Shown here: positions 1-20,700 of the stretch, piece after piece | Layout: each line of letters opens with the position of its first letter | Position numbering within the stretch: the stretch's first letter is position 1 | Source: Saccoglossus kowalevskii | Lineage: Eukaryota; Hemichordata; Enteropneusta; Harrimaniidae | Reading direction: 5' to 3' | Assembly: GCF_000003605.2 (NCBI RefSeq) | Contig: NW_003151260.1 | Location: forward strand, 152,890-181,813 | Length of the DNA: 28,924 nt | Position numbers and translations under genes: made by a program | The notes under the pieces: model-generated | Told to the model about the DNA's origin: nothing | What the model saw: only the letters and a program-made list of their open reading frames with translations | Databases searched by the model: none

Positions 1-297
1 GAATTATGGATTTGTGATTGGCTAATGTCACGGCTAACGTGAATCATTGTGATTGGCTAAGCTAACGTTATTGATAGTGTGAATTATGGACTTGTGATTG
101 GCTAATGTCGCGGCTAACGTGAATCATTGGCATGTGATTGGCTAGTGTTATCGATAGTGTGAATTATGAACTTGTGATTGGCTAATGTCACGGCTAGTGT
201 GACTCACTAGCATCTGATTGGCTAATGTTATCGATAGTGTGAATTATGGATTTGTGATTGGCTAATGTTACGGCTAGTGTGAATCATTGACATTATT
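1..297. repeat. CCAAT-bearing minisatellite, 80 bp unit made of two ~40 bp monomers
   Basis: Near-identical units start at 1, 81, 161 and 241, each opening with GAATTATGRA. Each 80 bp unit splits into two related 40 bp halves opening GAATTATGG and GAATCATTG. Every half holds GATTGGCTA, an inverted CCAAT box, starting at 16, 51, 96, 136, 176, 216 and 256. The array runs off the left edge, so its full length is unknown. The last unit decays after about 290. A protein-binding role is only inference. Confidence 0.9.
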
Positions 298-3407: not shown

Positions 3408-3839
3408 CGTGAGAAGTACTGTACATTTTTATTATAGTATTATCAACGCTGGTTATCAATGGCACGCCCTGCGTTTGTTTGTTCTGCAGTGTTTTGACAA
3501 AGCATTTAATTTGTTGGTATGACTGTCATGACGACGTCGGACCACTTGCCGAGACTACTCATATGCAAATACAGATAATTTACATTTGAAAGCGACGCCT
3601 TTTTGAATCCGCAGCACAACGTGCAATAGTTGGACACGTCAGAACACGAGGTTGTGGTCACTCATTAACAGGTGCCGGTACACGCTGCTATCAGCACCCA
3701 GTTAATATTAGACGACCCAAACTCCGCGCCACTGACTAGCCAGTCTATACCACAGCTAAGAGACAACCGACACGTCTTTATATTTCTGTTTCGATTCTAT
3801 TGCAAGAAAAAAACGTTACTTGTGAACATTACAATAGCC
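3408..3839 (+). promoter_or_regulatory. Upstream and 5' untranslated region of ELOVL6
   Basis: The frame is open for 56 codons before the elongase ATG but contains no ATG, and its conceptual residues are unlike elongases, so I read it as untranslated. A perfect octamer ATGCAAAT lies at 3563-3570. ATTAACAG at 3664-3671 could be a splice acceptor for an upstream untranslated exon, but its pyrimidine tract is poor. I see no TATA box that clearly sets a transcription start. Confidence 0.4.
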
Positions 3840-4718
3840 ATGGTGACTGCAGGAGAATATGCTAATGAAGCACTACTATTAAGTAAACTCACTCATAATG
3901 GAGGTGTCTTCAGACGTCAGTACGATTTTGAGAGGAACCTCGTGGATACCCCTAGCTGGCATATCCACATGAAACATTATTGGCATTATTCAATCTATAC
4001 CAGTGTAGTCTACATTATACTAATATTCAGCATTCAACGTTATATGAGAGATCGACCTAAATTTCACCTCCGTGGCCCACTTGTCGCCTGGAATCTTGTA
4101 TTGGCCATCTTTAGTATGTGGGGATCTGTCCGCACCAGTCTGGATCTGTTCATCATTATCAAGGAAGATGGGTTTTATGCATCCGTGTGTGATTCCAAGT
4201 ATTTCACTCCATCGGCAGGATCCGCTATTTCATTCTGGGGTGTGCTGTTCGTACTTTCCAAATATCCGGAACTGATAGACACTTTCTTCATTGTACTGCG
4301 AAAACAGAAGTTAATATTCTTACACTGGTATCACCACGCTACCGTGCTCGTGTACTGTTGCCTGTGTCACAGTGAGTATGCCGCTCCAGCGTACTGGTTT
4401 TTAACCATGAATTTCACAGTCCATGCTTTTATGTACTTGTATTATGCAATCAGGGCAACAGGATACCGCGTTCCACTTAAGGTGAATATCGTGATCACCA
4501 GCTTGCAGATTACCCAAATGGTGGTTGGTTGCGGCGTTCTCATCTACGCTTACGCGATGAAAACCAAGGGTTACGGATGCGACGTGAGCGACTTTAACCT
4601 TACCTACGGCGGTCTCATGTACCTCAGTTATTTTATTCTCTTCGCTAACTTTTTCTACCATACATACTTTGGCAAGGGTACGTATTCCATTAAACAAGCC
4701 TTGAAGAAAAGAGAATAA
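3840..4718 (+). CDS. ELOVL6: ELOVL6-type very-long-chain fatty acid elongase, single coding exon
   Basis: By family knowledge this is the ER-membrane condensing enzyme (3-ketoacyl-CoA synthase) that extends C12-C16 saturated and monounsaturated acyl-CoAs by two carbons using malonyl-CoA. The 292-residue protein has the ELO motifs in order: KYPELIDT (141-148, KxxExxDT), the catalytic histidine box HWYHH (162-166), NFTVHAFMYLYY (191-202) and TSLQITQ (220-226). Hydrophobic stretches near 52-66, 81-93, 130-140, 168-177, 183-200, 216-238 and 258-273 fit a seven-pass fold. It ends KKRE, a KKxx-type ER-retrieval signal. Several stretches, including FVLSKxPEL and LRKQKLIFLHWYHH, match vertebrate ELOVL6 closely, so ELOVL6 or an ELOVL3/6 ancestor is preferred over the ELOVL1/7, 2/5 and 4 groups. 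The start is the first ATG of the frame, with G at -3 and +4. The coding region is intronless, unlike vertebrate ELOVL6. Confidence 0.92.
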   Translation: MVTAGEYANEALLLSKLTHNGGVFRRQYDFERNLVDTPSWHIHMKHYWHYSIYTSVVYIILIFSIQRYMRDRPKFHLRGPLVAWNLVLAIFSMWGSVRTSLDLFIIIKEDGFYASVCDSKYFTPSAGSAISFWGVLFVLSKYPELIDTFFIVLRKQKLIFLHWYHHATVLVYCCLCHSEYAAPAYWFLTMNFTVHAFMYLYYAIRATGYRVPLKVNIVITSLQITQMVVGCGVLIYAYAMKTKGYGCDVSDFNLTYGGLMYLSYFILFANFFYHTYFGKGTYSIKQALKKRE

Positions 4719-9439: not shown

Positions 9440-9960
9440 GTAGTACCTATATGTATAGTATCAAAGCAATTGAAATTGAAAATATCACTTTTTAACAAAA
9501 AATATTCATCAAAATTAGATATCACAAAATGAACAAATCTGAGAGAGGTTTACCTGTAGTACCTATATGTATAATATAAAAGCAATCAGAGTTGCTGTTT
9601 CCAAATAGAAGTCAAAATATCACTTTTTACCAAAAATATATCACAGAATAAACAAATCTGACCGAGGTCCACATGTAGTACCCATATACTAGTATATAAT
9701 ATCAAAGCAATCGTTCTTGAGGTTTACAGCAAGAAGTCGAAAATATCACTTTTTACCAAAAATATTCACCAAAATTAGAAACTTAAAGATATCCCCATGA
9801 AATGAACAAATCTAAGAATGGTCTGCCCAAGGTACTCCAATATCAAAGCAATAAGAATTGTAGTTTTCAAGAAGGAGTCAAAAAAGTAAACACGGACACG
9901 AACGCAGACAATCACTCATATAAGCTCTGCTTGATAAAGTCAACAGTGGAGCTAAAAATG
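9440..9960. repeat. Degenerate tandem repeat, four units of ~116-154 bp
   Basis: Units start with GTAGTACCTATAT at 9440 and 9556, its variant at 9675, and a shortened GGTACTCCAATAT near 9834. Each then carries ATATCAAAGCAATC, GAAGTCRAAAATATCAC, TTTTTACCAAAAATAT and AATRAACAAATCTGA in order. The array ends near 9890-9955 with GGACACGAACGCAGAC and later GGAGCTAAAAA. This resembles a dispersed repeat I recall from several marine invertebrate genomes, where a GGACG-rich stretch precedes GTGAGCTAAAAA, but that parallel is from memory. The frame at 9802-10029 lies in the array and is not a gene. Confidence 0.7.
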
Positions 9961-12322: not shown

Positions 12323-14766
12323 TTAACAGAATGGGGAAGCAGTTGGATCAATAGTTTTGAAAACATCCTTTAATGTTGCATCAGGATCAGAAGGATCATT
12401 TGTTTCAGTTGGACTGTTAGTATTTTGTTGTAATTGTTGATTACCTGCTACAAACCTCTTCCGTGGATCTTGGTTGGTAATCGATGATTGGCTAGCCCCT
12501 CTACGATTAACAGGATTCAGACTTTGGGTACCTTGAAACTGCTGCTGGCCAGGGCTTCCTCCACCATGATCAAATTGATTTCTATTTCTTTGATTTGGAA
12601 ACTGTGGTTGGCTAGGGCTTCCTTCACCACGATCAAATTGATTCTTATTTTGTGAATCTTGAAAATGTTGCTGATTAGGATTTCCAGCTGGATTTCTATT
12701 TCTAGGATCTTGGTTCAACACTTGACCTTGCTGATGTCGACTTTTCGGCCTTATCTTTGAACCTTGTGTAAATGAGCTTACCTGTGGTAGTCTGTGATAA
12801 GCACGAACAGGATGACTAATCAAAGCATTTGTCTGCAGTCCTTGACTATTGTCAGACTGATCACCAATGTCTGGAAAATTTTTTGGTGATTGTGACTCGT
12901 TTATTATTTGTGATTTAGAATCTGTCCTAAGGCGTGTGTTTGCCTCTGGAGGTTGTGTTTTACGCTCACCCTTTGGCAGTTTTGGGATTGAATAATTTGA
13001 AAGTCTTCCCCCAGGTTTTTGTGCTTTTGGATTGGGCTGCACTTGTGTGTTTTGTTGACCTGTTCTGTTACTGGGTTCTGAAATAGATCTCTGTATCCTA
13101 GGATCTTGAGTCAAGTTCACAGGAGTGTAACTAACACCTGAGCTTGCATTAGGTTCTTCTACCAAAATATTTTGTGTGGCAATTTTAGAATCCTGACTGA
13201 TACTCCGTGCTAATCTTGGATCCACAGACCGTTCCCCTTGAAAGCTTCCTGTTAATGTATGGCTCCTTGGTGGTGATGCAGAATGTCTTGGGTCAAAAGG
13301 TGACTGACCCTGAGCCAATTGTGGTGGTGCAGATTGTCTTGGATCAAAAGATGTTGTTGACATAAGTGGCGGTGCTGAATTTCTTGGATCAAAAGATAAT
13401 TGTGGTCTTAGTGGCGGTGTGGAATTCCTTGGACCGAAAGATGACTGGCCAACTGGAGGTGGTGCAGTATGGAATAAAGAAGAATCCGCCTTCAGTGGTG
13501 GTGCTGAATTCCTCGGATCGAAAGAGGATGTAGGCATAAGTGGCGGTCCTGAATTCCTTGGATCAAAAGATGGTCTTAGTTGTGGTGGCAAAGTCCTTGG
13601 ATCAAATGATGACTGTGGCATAAGTGGTGGTGGTGCAGAATTCCTTGGATCAAAAGATGATTGTGGTCTTAGAGGTGGTGGCAAATTCCTTGGATCAAAA
13701 GATGACTGCGACCCTAAAGGTGGTGGTGCTGAAATCCTTGGATCAAAAGATGACTGCGACCCTAAAGGTGGTGGTGCTGAAATCCTTGGATCAAAAGATG
13801 ACTGCGGCCTTAGAGGTGGTGGTGCTGAATTCCTTGGATCAAAAGATGATTGTGGCCCTAGGGGTGGCAGTGCTGAATTCCTTGGATCAAGAGATGACTG
13901 CGGCCCTAGTGGTGGTGGTGCTGAATTCCTTGGATCAAAAGATGACTGCGGCCCTAGTGGTGGTGGTGCTGAATTCCTTGGATCAAAAGATGACTGCGGT
14001 CCTAGTGGTGGTGGTGCTGAATTCCTTGGATCAAAAGATGATTGTGGTCCTAGTGATGGAGTTGAAGTACTTGGATTCAAAGGAAGTAGTTGGGGAATGG
14101 CAGCCTTTCTCGGGTCAGCAGGCCGATCAGATTGTCTTCTTCGCCTGGGATCACTAGGTCTTTTCGTGGGTGGTGGTTTGGGAGCATTGGCTTTAAATTT
14201 TTCAACTTCAAAACTCTCTTCAATATCCTTCCAATGCAGTAACTGTAAATCAGGATTCTGGAAATCTTTTGGCTGCTTGTGCAGTCTAGGATCTTCATGT
14301 GGAAGCCTATGGGTGTCACTGACACTGGGCATTGTCTTAGTAACAGGATCTAATGGAATTGTCTGCTGTTGGTTGGTTGGCGATTTCAATTCAGTTATTC
14401 TTACTCCATCATTGGTTGTGCTTAATTGTTCAGATTTTTCAGTTTGAACCAATGGAGGAGGTTCCTCAGTAATTTGTTTCTGTACTCTAGGGTCTGCGTG
14501 CAGTGTTCTTGTTGTTGGATCAATCTTCGGCTGAGTTGCATCTTGTCCACTACCTCTAGCACTCAGTAAAAGTTGATCTATAATATTCATTTGGGCATTA
14601 GCTTGAGCAGTAGCAGCTGTGTTCGCTTGCGACTGTGAGACTTGTTGTCTGATTGTATGAAGAACTGCTGCTAGTGGTTGGCTATTACTAGATGCCCCAG
14701 CTGGGAGAGACAAAGGCATAGCACCATCTTCATCATCACTCGAGTACCAATCATCGTCATCCCCAG
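12323..14766 (-). CDS. ZC3H4: ZC3H4-like exon 10 (terminal): DPR-rich disordered tail
   Basis: The acceptor is ATGTTTTAG|. It opens [15 protein letters not shown] and soon has [11 protein letters not shown], matching GNWYSSDEDEG and SILKTLRQQ in human ZC3H4. About 25 Asp-Pro-Arg motifs follow, most of them in the tandem array at residues ~830-1090. A Gln/Asn-rich segment with 21-residue repeats (~1270-1350) precedes the conserved end [16 protein letters not shown]. Human ZC3H6 also ends FDPTASPFC, so the terminus is certain. Confidence 0.95.
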
Positions 14767-17700
14767 CTAAAACATACAAAGATAAGATATTAAATTAGAG
14801 ATTTTTAAATATCTGAGTATCCTTGAAAGAAGACATGCAGCAGATGATTTGGTGACTTCATTTCTGGATGATATAATACATAATTTTTATGGTGTCACAT
14901 CATCTGTATGTATTGGTATGTAGCAAATAGCTTAGTAGAAGCAGCTCAGCATAATAAACAATAAATTAGTTCTGAATGCTCCCTGGTATGTTTTATGCAT
15001 TCCTGAGTCAACTTATCATGTTACTGCGAATAATAAATATACGGTCTTACCTGCATCTTTCTCATCTTGTTTCTGTTCTTCAGATGTTGTTAACTCATCC
15101 TCCTGTTGTTTTTGTTGAATTCTCATGAACAGTTCTCTTTGTTTGGGTGCTAGAAACATTGGAACTTTAGGTGGTTGTATATTGGCTCTCCTTATTTCAC
15201 CATCACTACCAACAGCAGCTACACTACTGGTAGCTGAATCACTGTCTCTGTTTTCATCTTCTATTTTTGGACCTTGCTGATTGTCACTGTCACCAACAGA
15301 ATCTAAAATAAACCCAAGTAGAGCGCCATTAGTTCCACAATACTTTTGTCTGCTGAGTACTGGTAAGTACATGTCAAGTCTTTTGCCTTACAGCAATTTC
15401 TTAAAACCCTCACTGACCAGGGCCATACTATGTCATACTAAAGCGTATAAATCTAAATCTAAACATGGTTTCAGAACTTCACTAAAACAAAACGGCCATT
15501 TTGAATCCAATCCAAAGGAACATGCAAGTTCCATAATGACATACATGACTGGGTATCCAGTCGCAGTATCACAAAAATGACTTTGATGATCATTTTTTAG
15601 CACAGAAATAGCCGTTATTCAGCCATCTGGAATCAGATCCCAAACTGAATGAACGTGTGCAAGTAATCTTAGTAAGTATGATATATTTGTGAACTTTGAA
15701 TGTAATCAGTTTAAGCATGTCAAAGATACAGGTGGAAATATACACACAGGGGTAAAATCACAAGTCCATGTTTTCGGACTTTGTTCAAACAGGAGCCAAT
15801 AATCCCAATGAATGAAATTTGTTTCCATCTAAAAATTCTAGTGTAAGCTTACAATGAAAATTTTGGAAGCCAACCTGAGAATTTATACATGTGCCATAGA
15901 CAAAATACTAACCTGGTTGACTAGGGTAAAAGTTGTCATAGAATGTAGAAGGTGTTTTCATAGGACTGGTTGTTGTCATTCCTCGCACCGGTAAAGCAGA
16001 CTGTGAAGGAGGTTGATCGTCTTCCATCATTCTTTGACTATCAGATTCGGAAACACTCCCTTCCACTTCAGGTGATTCTTCTGCGTTGTAAAACTGAAAC
16101 CTGATATATATATAAACCATAAACAACTCAACTCAATAATCCATGTGGATATTTGGCAGAATCAACATTTGAGACCACAACATTTATGTCATCTTTGCAC
16201 TTACTTTGAACAAAATCTGTAAGGCATGTTTGAGAAATGATAAAAACATAAATATAATATCGAACAGCCACATTGAATTAAACAACAAAACAAACCATTA
16301 ATGACGTCAATACCAAGTTTGAATGAATACATCCAGGCATGGAAAACGAATTATGATGTGTTGAAATTTTATATTTGGTGTTTTTGGAACAAATATAGCA
16401 TCCAGTCAATCAAATTAGTCTAAGTTGACAATAATATAGCTGTATACACACATTTGCATCACATAGTCACTGTGAATTATCAAGTTTAAGAAATATAATT
16501 ATAAAATTTAAACATGAGCGGTCTCTGGGCATGTCAGAAATATAGCTGGAAAACAGCATTAACCTTTTCACAACCAGTTCCTTCTTTTCATCACAAATTC
16601 ACAAAATAGTCCTGTTATACTCTCAGAAGAAGTAAAAACTTTTTGTCTGTTGGCTCCAAACTTAGGGTTCATTTCCAGAAATATTGAAGAATACAAGAAA
16701 TAAGTGCAGATAAATTTTAGCAAGGAAGACTGGTGGTGAAAAGGTTAAAACAATATGCCCGGTTCCCTATCTCAGACTGCATTTGAACAGAGACAGATTA
16801 ACAATTAAGAACAAACAATCATGTCACAATACCCTCTTCTCTTGAAGTCGTATGAATTGGTAAAACCTGAAGCAGAGATGTTGAGCTTATTGAATAAAAT
16901 ATTTCCAATATTACATGTCCAAAATCTGTATCTGAGCTGAAATACTGAACAGTCCTTACTTTTGAGTTTCTTTTGCTAATATTTTCTGCCCTTGATGACC
17001 TGTAGGAGCAACATGTATATCAAATAATGATGGAATACTAGTATTAGCTGTCTGTCCTCCTGGTGTACCTGGAGTGGGCAATAGAGTGCGCCGTGGTTGA
17101 TCCTGTGCACCTTGTGGCATTTCCTCAAACTCTTCATTATAGGGCATTTGTAGATCGTTTTTATCAAACCTCTTTTCTCGTCCGTGATTCAAAACCTGGA
17201 AACAAAAGACTCCGGAGTTAGGAGTTTAAAACACTTTAATTCGTCTTCTTGTCCATTACTGACCCGTCCTCTTGAAAAAAGTCCTACTAAACAAGATTTT
17301 GAACTTTGATTTGCAAGATGACCAACTATAGACTAAAATTTATGATTTCTTAAACTTTAAGAACTACCTTACCTTTTCCAGTAATGGCCTTGTCTCATCT
17401 GTTAACGGATCGTGTGAAAATTTACAGTTTTCACCTTGATAACATTCTGCCCCCGTATGGAAAAACTTGCATGGATAATTAGGTGAGAAAAGTTAAAGTA
17501 TTAACTGAGAAGAGATTTACCATTCACAACCCTAACAAGTCATTGTAAAAGTATTTGAATGATAGTCACCATTCAGGCGTGTAAAATGAGATCACAATAC
17601 AAAACAAATGCAAGCTTAGAATAAATGTGTGCTAAGGGTATTGGAGGCAAAGAACTTAAAAGATGGTGGTCGACACGACAGGACATGACATGGTAATCAT

Positions 17701-20700
17701 AGCAATGTACACAAGTAAATATATTTTAAAATACATGAAATTCAAACATGTGCTGCACAACAACCACCATCCTTTAAAATTAACTAAAAATATAAGTCAG
17801 TTGACTAAGATAGCTCTGCTTATTATGATGTAAAAGCAATCTGACCCGTTTATAAATACTAACAGAAAACACTACAAAGATAATATTAAAACAACATTTG
17901 AATGTATATCTGTAGTTTATCATAGAACACCTATGCATCAACTTTCACTTAAATCATTCAAGTGATATCAGTGACGAAGAATAAAATTTGCTATTAATTA
18001 TGCAAATTAGATGTTTAATACACATGAATTTCAACCCAAAACTAATCAGATACTCGTGGTGATCTTAAACAAATTGGTTTAAGGTTAATCCCAGTCTTCC
18101 TTCCATGAAGACAGTAAGTCACAAATTGGGCATAATTCAAGTGTTAATGCTCTAAGACTATTGTGCCAGCATGTAGATGGGCAAAGTGTCATACATGTAT
18201 ACCTCATGTGGATTTAGTACGTATGTCTATGGTGTTAACAAATCTTACATTCATTTAACATATTGAAAAGGATATCATGCAGAAACAAACACTGATCGCC
18301 CTTCACACAGTTACTGTTTAAATAAAATTTACATAATTCATTTTTCTTGTTTTGTGCTCCAGCATGGGAGAATGGACAGTGTTCACCCTGTTAAAAAAAA
18401 CAAAGAATATGTTAAATGCAAACACTAACAAATTTATATATAGGAAAAAGTTAAACAAGAAATCATGATGGGTGTATCTTACCTTGGAACACTTTCCATC
18501 CATGTAAAACTTGCATGGAACTTTACTTCTTGGTAGTTGTCCAATTCCACCACGACCTCTACCTCTACCACGCCCATGGAACCCCCTACCCCTTCCTCTG
18601 ATGAACTGAAAACAAAAGGTTTGGTTGTTTACTGAACATTATTTGAGCCACCATGATGATTTTCGCTATTTATTTCATATACTAATTTAATATCAGTTTG
18701 TTTGTTTTTTTGCTCTAGCCGTATTTACACAAAGTTATTTAAATGTAACAAGACGCAACAAGAGCTGGGAATTTTTTCTGTCAAGACCTTTCGCCAATTT
18801 GGTTTCAAATTAACAAAAAAGTTATAGAAAAATACATTATGATGAGAAAAACAATGGCATTAAAAGTGTATATTACTGCAGCATATGTCATTTGTACATA
18901 AATGTGTAATAAGTAACGATATGACCTACATGTCTTGGACTATGGTGTTCACCATCATGCTCCATTTCTCCATTATTAGAGTTGTTCTCCCAATCATTGT
19001 TATATTGTGCTCCAGGTGGAACAGCGTAATTAGATTGATGATACATATTGTAGCCACCATGCGAGTAAGATCTATCAAAGGGTCTGTCATAAGGGTCGTT
19101 TTCATCAAATGAATCACTATAGTCTGAATATGAAGGACTTCTTGATGGTGGAGACTGTTGACAAATGATACATAATAATTAATTAGATGAGAGTTAACAA
19201 ATTTCAACAATGTCACAGTTCAGATCAGAGCCAACTGGGTACATTTGCATATCACACTTTCCAGGATATATGGTTCTCTATTGTTTTATTACAGTTATTT
19301 CCCTACTTAAAATGAAATCAACCATTCCAGGGAACATGCATTTAATGTTTAACTATTAGATGGTTTTCATATAATATTATGATTGCTGAACACAATACAG
19401 TAACAGCGCTATCTGGAGCTTAAATTGAAGTATTTTTCCCACCAAATCTATGCAATTACACGTCAATAATCAAATTTGTACTACTGATGAATTTGGTTCC
19501 AGAAAGGTGGAAATGCATGTTTACAACTCAAATAGATGCTGGTTTTTAATGCCACAGTACCTCACTCCGATGCCGCCTCCTCTTCTTTCGCTTCCTTCTA
19601 GCATCTCTTTCTTTTTCCTTTTCTCGTCTTCGCTTTTTCTTTTTTCTCCTATGCCTTTCTTCTTTCTCTTTTAGTCTTGCTCTTCTTTCCTTATCTTCCA
19701 AGTCTTCCTCGTCATCCGTATCATCATCGTTTCCTTTGATGACTTCATTTTCCTCTATGTCTTCTTTTTCATCGAATACTTTTGCTTTCTCCTCCGCCAT
19801 TGGTTCTCCCTCGCATACTTTCTCTTCTTCCTGTTCCTGCCCAGTTTCATCTCCATTCACCTCCTCTTCTTCCCCGCCAGAATCTTCAAGTTCACCATCC
19901 TCAAGTTCACCTTCTTCTTTATCCTCTTCATCATCCCCATCATTTTCTTCTCCGTCTTCAACTTCTGTACTTGTTAGTTCTCCAGCTACAGCCTCATGCC
20001 TGTAAATCAGTAAAACAAAGATTATCACGCATGTTCACAATAACCTTCTAACCGCCAGTTCTCTCTTTTCATCACAAATTTACAAAATAGTCCCGGAGGT
20101 GAAAAGGTTAAAAACAAAAACATGACCACAGCCCTAAATTAGTCTACTGTCAATAGATGAGCACATACTTGGATAAACATTGGAAAGAAGACCGTTAGTG
20201 CCTGGTACCAAATCATTTTGAATAATAAAATTGTCAGTAACCACATTTTGTGTTTACAAGTAAAAAAAAAAAGCATTTTCCACGGATATTAAAATTTATT
20301 TATTATGTACGTATATATTTTGCATATACCAAATTTGAACAAATTTCACCATGTACGTCTGTGATCTTTTGCAATAATATAAAAATAAAATATTTCAAAC
20401 CATGATACGTGTGCACATTGATGTGTAAACTTAAATTGTCTAGGCATGCTGAAACATGGCTCGGAAACATCAATAAAGCAACTAGTTATATTGAACTATA
20501 TTGAATCATATTTGTATGACAAAATATAGTGAATCAAGATCTCAATCTGTAGTTTGAATATAAACCATACATCCACATATACATGCAGCTGATTTGTCAA
20601 TAGTCTGCCATCAGAAAATGAAATAATGCCTTTGCTTATCTCTTGATGTTTTCTGTACGTGTAAAGTTTGAATGGCAGAGACACGACTGCAAAACAAAAT

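Follow-up and report, generated by a model that had tools for sequence, protein, structure and literature searches.

The window, a 28,924-nucleotide stretch of Saccoglossus kowalevskii DNA, carries on its minus strand a gene resembling ZC3H4 and ZC3H6, which was mapped as nine exons running from 19999 to 12323 with a frame that stays open for 1375 residues. The exons are listed below in the order in which they are read.

19561..19999, minus strand, coding exon, acidic at first and basic thereafter; one or more initial exons lie further upstream
18930..19154, minus strand, coding exon
18483..18605, minus strand, exon encoding an RG-rich stretch and the beginning of finger 1
18276..18387, minus strand, exon 5' of the AT-AC intron, with the end of finger 1 and finger 2
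17373..17482, minus strand, exon 3' of the AT-AC intron, with finger 3 (PF22623)
16960..17195, minus strand, coding exon
15913..16100, minus strand, coding exon
15051..15302, minus strand, coding exon
12323..14766, minus strand, final coding exon, which contains 16-residue repeats as well as the stop codon

The repeats of the last exon form a 48-nt (16-residue) tandem array at 13366..14081, and the strand opposite this array holds a 377-aa open frame that is probably a by-product. Elsewhere in the window, an open frame for a fatty-acid elongase lies at 3669..4718 on the plus strand (PF01151 ELO, 229.5 bits, profile positions 2-237 of 242, the matched part being intronless), an 80-nt satellite-like tandem array occupies the window edge at 1..293, and a 119-nt two-copy array is found at 9519..9775.

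The family assignment made by the first-pass annotation, ZC3H4/ZC3H6, was upheld by structure and domain searches. When the spliced finger block was compared with known structures, the best match was 2cqe, from human ZC3H4 (KIAA1064), with an E value of 1.2e-23 over 73 ungapped residues that span the splice junction; the next-best structures were CPSF30/CPSF4 chains. Finger 2, the three-residue linker and finger 3 align without a gap to those of human ZC3H4, a Restrictor subunit. Finger 3 matches the Pfam model PF22623 (KIAA1064-like) with an E value of 4.5e-21, and in the longer protein this match reaches 79.3 bits for a cut-off of 27; its best stretch covers residues 39-75 of the finger block, the junction falling after residue 36. 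The charged flanks and DPR-rich tail of the predicted protein also resemble those of the ZC3H4/ZC3H6 family. Human ZC3H4 binds WDR82 and restricts non-coding transcription, according to the passages of PMC8137146 that concern it.

The 572-Mb genome gave two matches to PF22623, both in this gene and one of them above the cut-off. A protein search of the same genome returned seven matches, three in this gene and four weak ones elsewhere (L007 to L010, E 0.04 to 4.7), and one of the latter, L008, has fingers that resemble another CCCH family. The general CCCH model PF00642 matched nine times, always on other contigs and never in this gene, and other genes with predicted CCCH fingers are thus present in the genome. 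An exon-by-exon search of this possibly incomplete assembly yielded no second ZC3H4/6-like gene and no ZC3H8-like gene. A pattern search for relatives gave three matching stretches in viral contigs, none of which was confirmed, and 54 in genome contigs, a single one of which was confirmed; this last (L001) is a bacterial protein with a DETRPLLEK stretch and no finger array, and was rejected as spurious.

Fingers 2 and 3 of the ZC3H4-like gene are separated by a 793-nt phase-1 intron that begins with AT and ends with AC (18275..17483, minus strand), the other seven mapped introns being GT-AG. It reads ATATCCTTTT ... TACTTTAACTTTTCTCAC, followed by the exon sequence CTAATTATCC, and its features are the following.

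17483..18275, minus strand, U12-type AT-AC intron (phase 1, 793 nt) that separates CCCH fingers 2 and 3
18266..18275, minus strand, U12 5' splice site ATATCCTTTT
17492..17500, minus strand, branch-point motif TACTTTAAC, whose presumed branch A, at 17493, stands 10 nt from the end of the intron
17483..17484, minus strand, AC terminus of the intron

The upstream exon (18387..18276) ends within finger 2 (...CLFLH) and the downstream exon (17482..17373) opens within the linker that precedes finger 3 (PCKFFH...), so that the junction lies in the linker between these two fingers, where it had been placed beforehand. The codon is split after its first base, and the splice joins CAT-G to CT-AAT (His, Ala, Asn). 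The AT and AC termini thereby restore the reading frame of the gene. Retention of the intron, by contrast, would add 13 residues past the last His of finger 2 before a stop codon.

To compare this junction with other possible ones, introns of at least 30 nt were enumerated whose start lies beyond the last His of finger 2 and whose end precedes the Pro of finger 3. Among these pairs, the routes that join the two fingers in an open frame number four for GT-AC and six for AT-AC, and none was obtained with GT-AG, GC-AG or AT-AG ends. Just one of the ten open routes, the 18275..17483 pair, has a U12 donor along with a linker of three residues and a branch motif at the correct distance. The nearest alternatives are the same U12 donor used with an AC at 17492, so that the intron would stop at the branch motif and the linker would have six residues, and a donor at 18263 that is not of the U12 type, with a linker of seven residues. 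AG acceptors fail because an in-frame TAA stands just upstream of finger 3 and no AG is found between this TAA and the first Cys of the finger. A reading with two introns around a small internal exon fares no better: with any AG acceptor, the exon of finger 3 either runs into the stop or loses its first Cys, and this reading was discarded. The enumeration therefore agrees with the earlier claims that this splice alone keeps the finger spacing, being the sole U12 donor with a three-residue linker among the enumerated pairs, and that a U2 route runs into a stop. Gene models restricted to GT-AG or GC-AG introns would, on the enumerated pairs, be unable to connect fingers 2 and 3 of the ZC3H4-like gene.

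The strength of the splice signals was scored with an approximate U12 matrix built from the consensus. On this matrix, the donor ATATCCTTTT reaches 14.5 bits for a maximum of 15.4 and is close to RTATCCTTT, whereas the branch motif TACTTTAAC, close to TTCCTTRAY, is moderate, with 7.7 for a maximum of 14.2. At least as high a branch score is found at 29 sites of the window (12 on the plus strand and 17 on the minus strand), the motif itself included. Searching both strands of the window for ATATCCTT returned two copies, and the one away from the intron, at 14223 on the plus strand, falls within the final exon of the ZC3H4-like gene, in antisense orientation. The first-pass annotation had held that donor, branch and AC end all fit the minor-spliceosome AT-AC class; this holds for the near-maximal donor with its AT start and for the termini, and less so for the branch, which is only of middling quality.

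Under a first-order Markov model, and at the junction that the protein imposes, a donor of this quality has a chance of 0.0007 of occurring within 13 places and a branch of this quality together with an AC or AG end one of 0.06, while the joint chance is about 4.5e-5. This last value bears on whether the gene could be a pseudogene or a misassembly in which the AT-AC junction is fortuitous. Such an explanation appears highly improbable, given also that the 1375-residue frame is open across nine exons and that the region of the junction is conserved with human ZC3H4. The phase of the intron, phase 1, is likewise in keeping with the U12 reading; minor introns are reported in PMC10639083 to be biased away from phase 0 and to be enriched in several invertebrate groups.

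AT-AC ends may also be removed by the major spliceosome, as U2-class AT-AC introns exist, although they are very rare. Rows of a table in PMC7367187 give frequencies of 0 to 0.05% for this class. Here, however, the donor conforms to the U12 consensus and scores -7.8 on an approximate U2 matrix, the branch motif stands at the distance expected for U12, and parts of the minor spliceosome are present in the genome, so that removal by the major spliceosome seems highly improbable.

Genes for U6atac, U4atac and PDCD7 are indeed present in this genome. U6atac is represented by two full-length copies on different contigs (L017 and L018, 136 and 112 bits); pairs are lost from one stem of the second, which may thus represent a variant or a pseudogene. 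U4atac scored 67 bits for a cut-off of 53, with some non-standard pairs. PDCD7, also called the U11/U12 59K protein, gave three ordered exon matches over the cut-off (best E 6e-8); two of the three were confirmed on rescanning and the third has a stop codon within the matched stretch. Family searches of the same genome returned neither U12 nor U11 RNA, but of the candidates no more than 44 of 18940 and 40 of 36006 were scored in them, and they gave no signal in any control genome; a 22-base pattern taken from the human sequence, allowing at most 2 mismatches, did not retrieve U12 either. No RNA gene reached the Rfam gathering score in the window or in three fetched stretches.

We therefore give a probability of about 0.93 to the sequence at 18275..17483 being a true U12-dependent AT-AC intron, located in the one gene of the ZC3H4/ZC3H6 family that this genome yielded, and we infer that it is spliced in vivo. 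Recognition of the ATATCCTTTT donor and of the region around the TACTTTAAC branch motif by the U11/U12 di-snRNP would be followed by entry of the U4atac/U6atac.U5 particle, and excision would fuse CAT-G with CT-AAT to yield two intact fingers separated by the three-residue linker of the family. Since both retention and the tested GT-AG routes truncate the protein before finger 3, output of the ZC3H4-like protein would depend on the capacity of the minor spliceosome.

Minor introns and AT-AC introns are well described, as passages of PMC10639083 and PMC7367187 illustrate, and the intron of the ZC3H4-like gene is a well-supported new member of this known class. There is already a precedent for a link of minor splicing to the termination machinery: the genes of the human Integrator subunits INTS4, INTS7, INTS8 and INTS10 have minor introns, according to PMC9881141. 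The two cases are alike in that genes of the RNA 3'-end and termination machinery carry such introns, and differ in that Integrator is another complex, described in human, whereas the present case is a ZC3H4-like gene. If it is spliced as predicted, the sole ZC3H4-family gene found here would need the minor spliceosome and would extend the Integrator precedent. The article texts searched contained none naming ZC3H4, ZC3H6 or ZC3H8 as a minor-intron gene, although prior knowledge may exist in minor-intron catalogues. The ZC3H passages of PMC11460701 and PMC9320363 proved unrelated to minor introns.

A pair of U2-like sites lies inside the U12-type intron:

17505..18248, minus strand, candidate nested U2 intron, with the donor AAT/GTAAGA (G at 18248) and the acceptor TCTTCTCAG ending at 17505; predicted to lead to a stop before finger 3

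Twintrons are defined, and vertebrate cases given, in PMC3564746. Were the present sites to form one, the two spliceosomes would compete: removal of the U12 intron would give the full-length protein and removal of the nested U2 intron (18248..17505) a truncated or NMD-targeted product, a switch like those of Drosophila prospero or human SRSF10, for which nesting of U2 sites within an AT-AC intron is described in passages of PMC8329584. The GTAAGA donor lies 27 nt into the intron and has a score of 7.7 on an approximate matrix, which falls among the values of the donors used by this gene (3.7 to 11.4), and the TCTTCTCAG acceptor ends 22 nt before the end of the U12 intron. A comparable U2 pair (a donor scoring 7.7 or more in the first 60 nt and an acceptor scoring 1.9 or more in the last 40) arose in 0.8% of 1000 Markov shuffles, with windows that were picked after seeing the sequence. 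The acceptor, however, is weak, 2.6 against 2.4 to 10.7 for those in use, and on its own it was matched in 37% of the shuffles, while a donor as good as GTAAGA arose somewhere in 30% of them. Moreover, none of the 28 AG acceptors tried with the GTAAGA donor avoided a stop ahead of finger 3, which is also what random intron sequence would give. A functional twintron thus appears unlikely. Human SRSF10, as passages of PMC8329584 report, shares with this arrangement an AT-AC U12 intron that encloses U2 sites and a U2 route that truncates the product; it differs in that its nested unit employs an internal exon bearing a poly(A) signal and in that its regulation has been studied. Less likely still is that such a twintron acts as a protein-dose switch, in which competition between the minor and major spliceosomes would set the level of the sole ZC3H4-family termination factor identified in the genome, and a falling minor-spliceosome capacity would shut the factor off and free non-coding transcription.

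The genuine U12-type intron proposed for the ZC3H4-like gene can be compared with one in another gene of the same genome, taken as an independent control for the ability of the organism to splice such introns. The gene prospero is a classic AT-AC gene. Its S. kowalevskii homologue (L019 / L015) carries at G000:C3422:31953..31657, minus strand, a 297-nt phase-0 AT-AC U12-type intron, in which the exon ending ...SAPNSA is followed by ATATCCTTTTACAT... and the 3' end TTCCTTAACTCTTATTCAC by the next exon SLNTTLTPAHLKKAKLMFF. This intron has the same ATATCCTTTT donor, identical over ten bases to that of the ZC3H4-like gene, a TTCCTTAAC branch motif and an AC end. Two RTATCCTT sites were found on the prospero strand in the 50 kb searched upstream, and of these the AT-AC donor alone comes after an open frame at the expected position. 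The next prospero intron, within the matched domain, reads GT-AG. Drosophila prospero resembles the ZC3H4-like gene in having an AT-AC U12 intron; it is a different gene, and use of its nested U2 intron leads to a longer isoform, as passages of PMC8329584 indicate, whereas use of the U2 sites in the ZC3H4-like intron would truncate the protein. The S. kowalevskii prospero intron offers a ready comparison for that of the ZC3H4-like gene. A U2-like acceptor, TTTTTTCAG, is also present in this prospero intron, 38 nt before its end, and its use would meet an in-frame stop.
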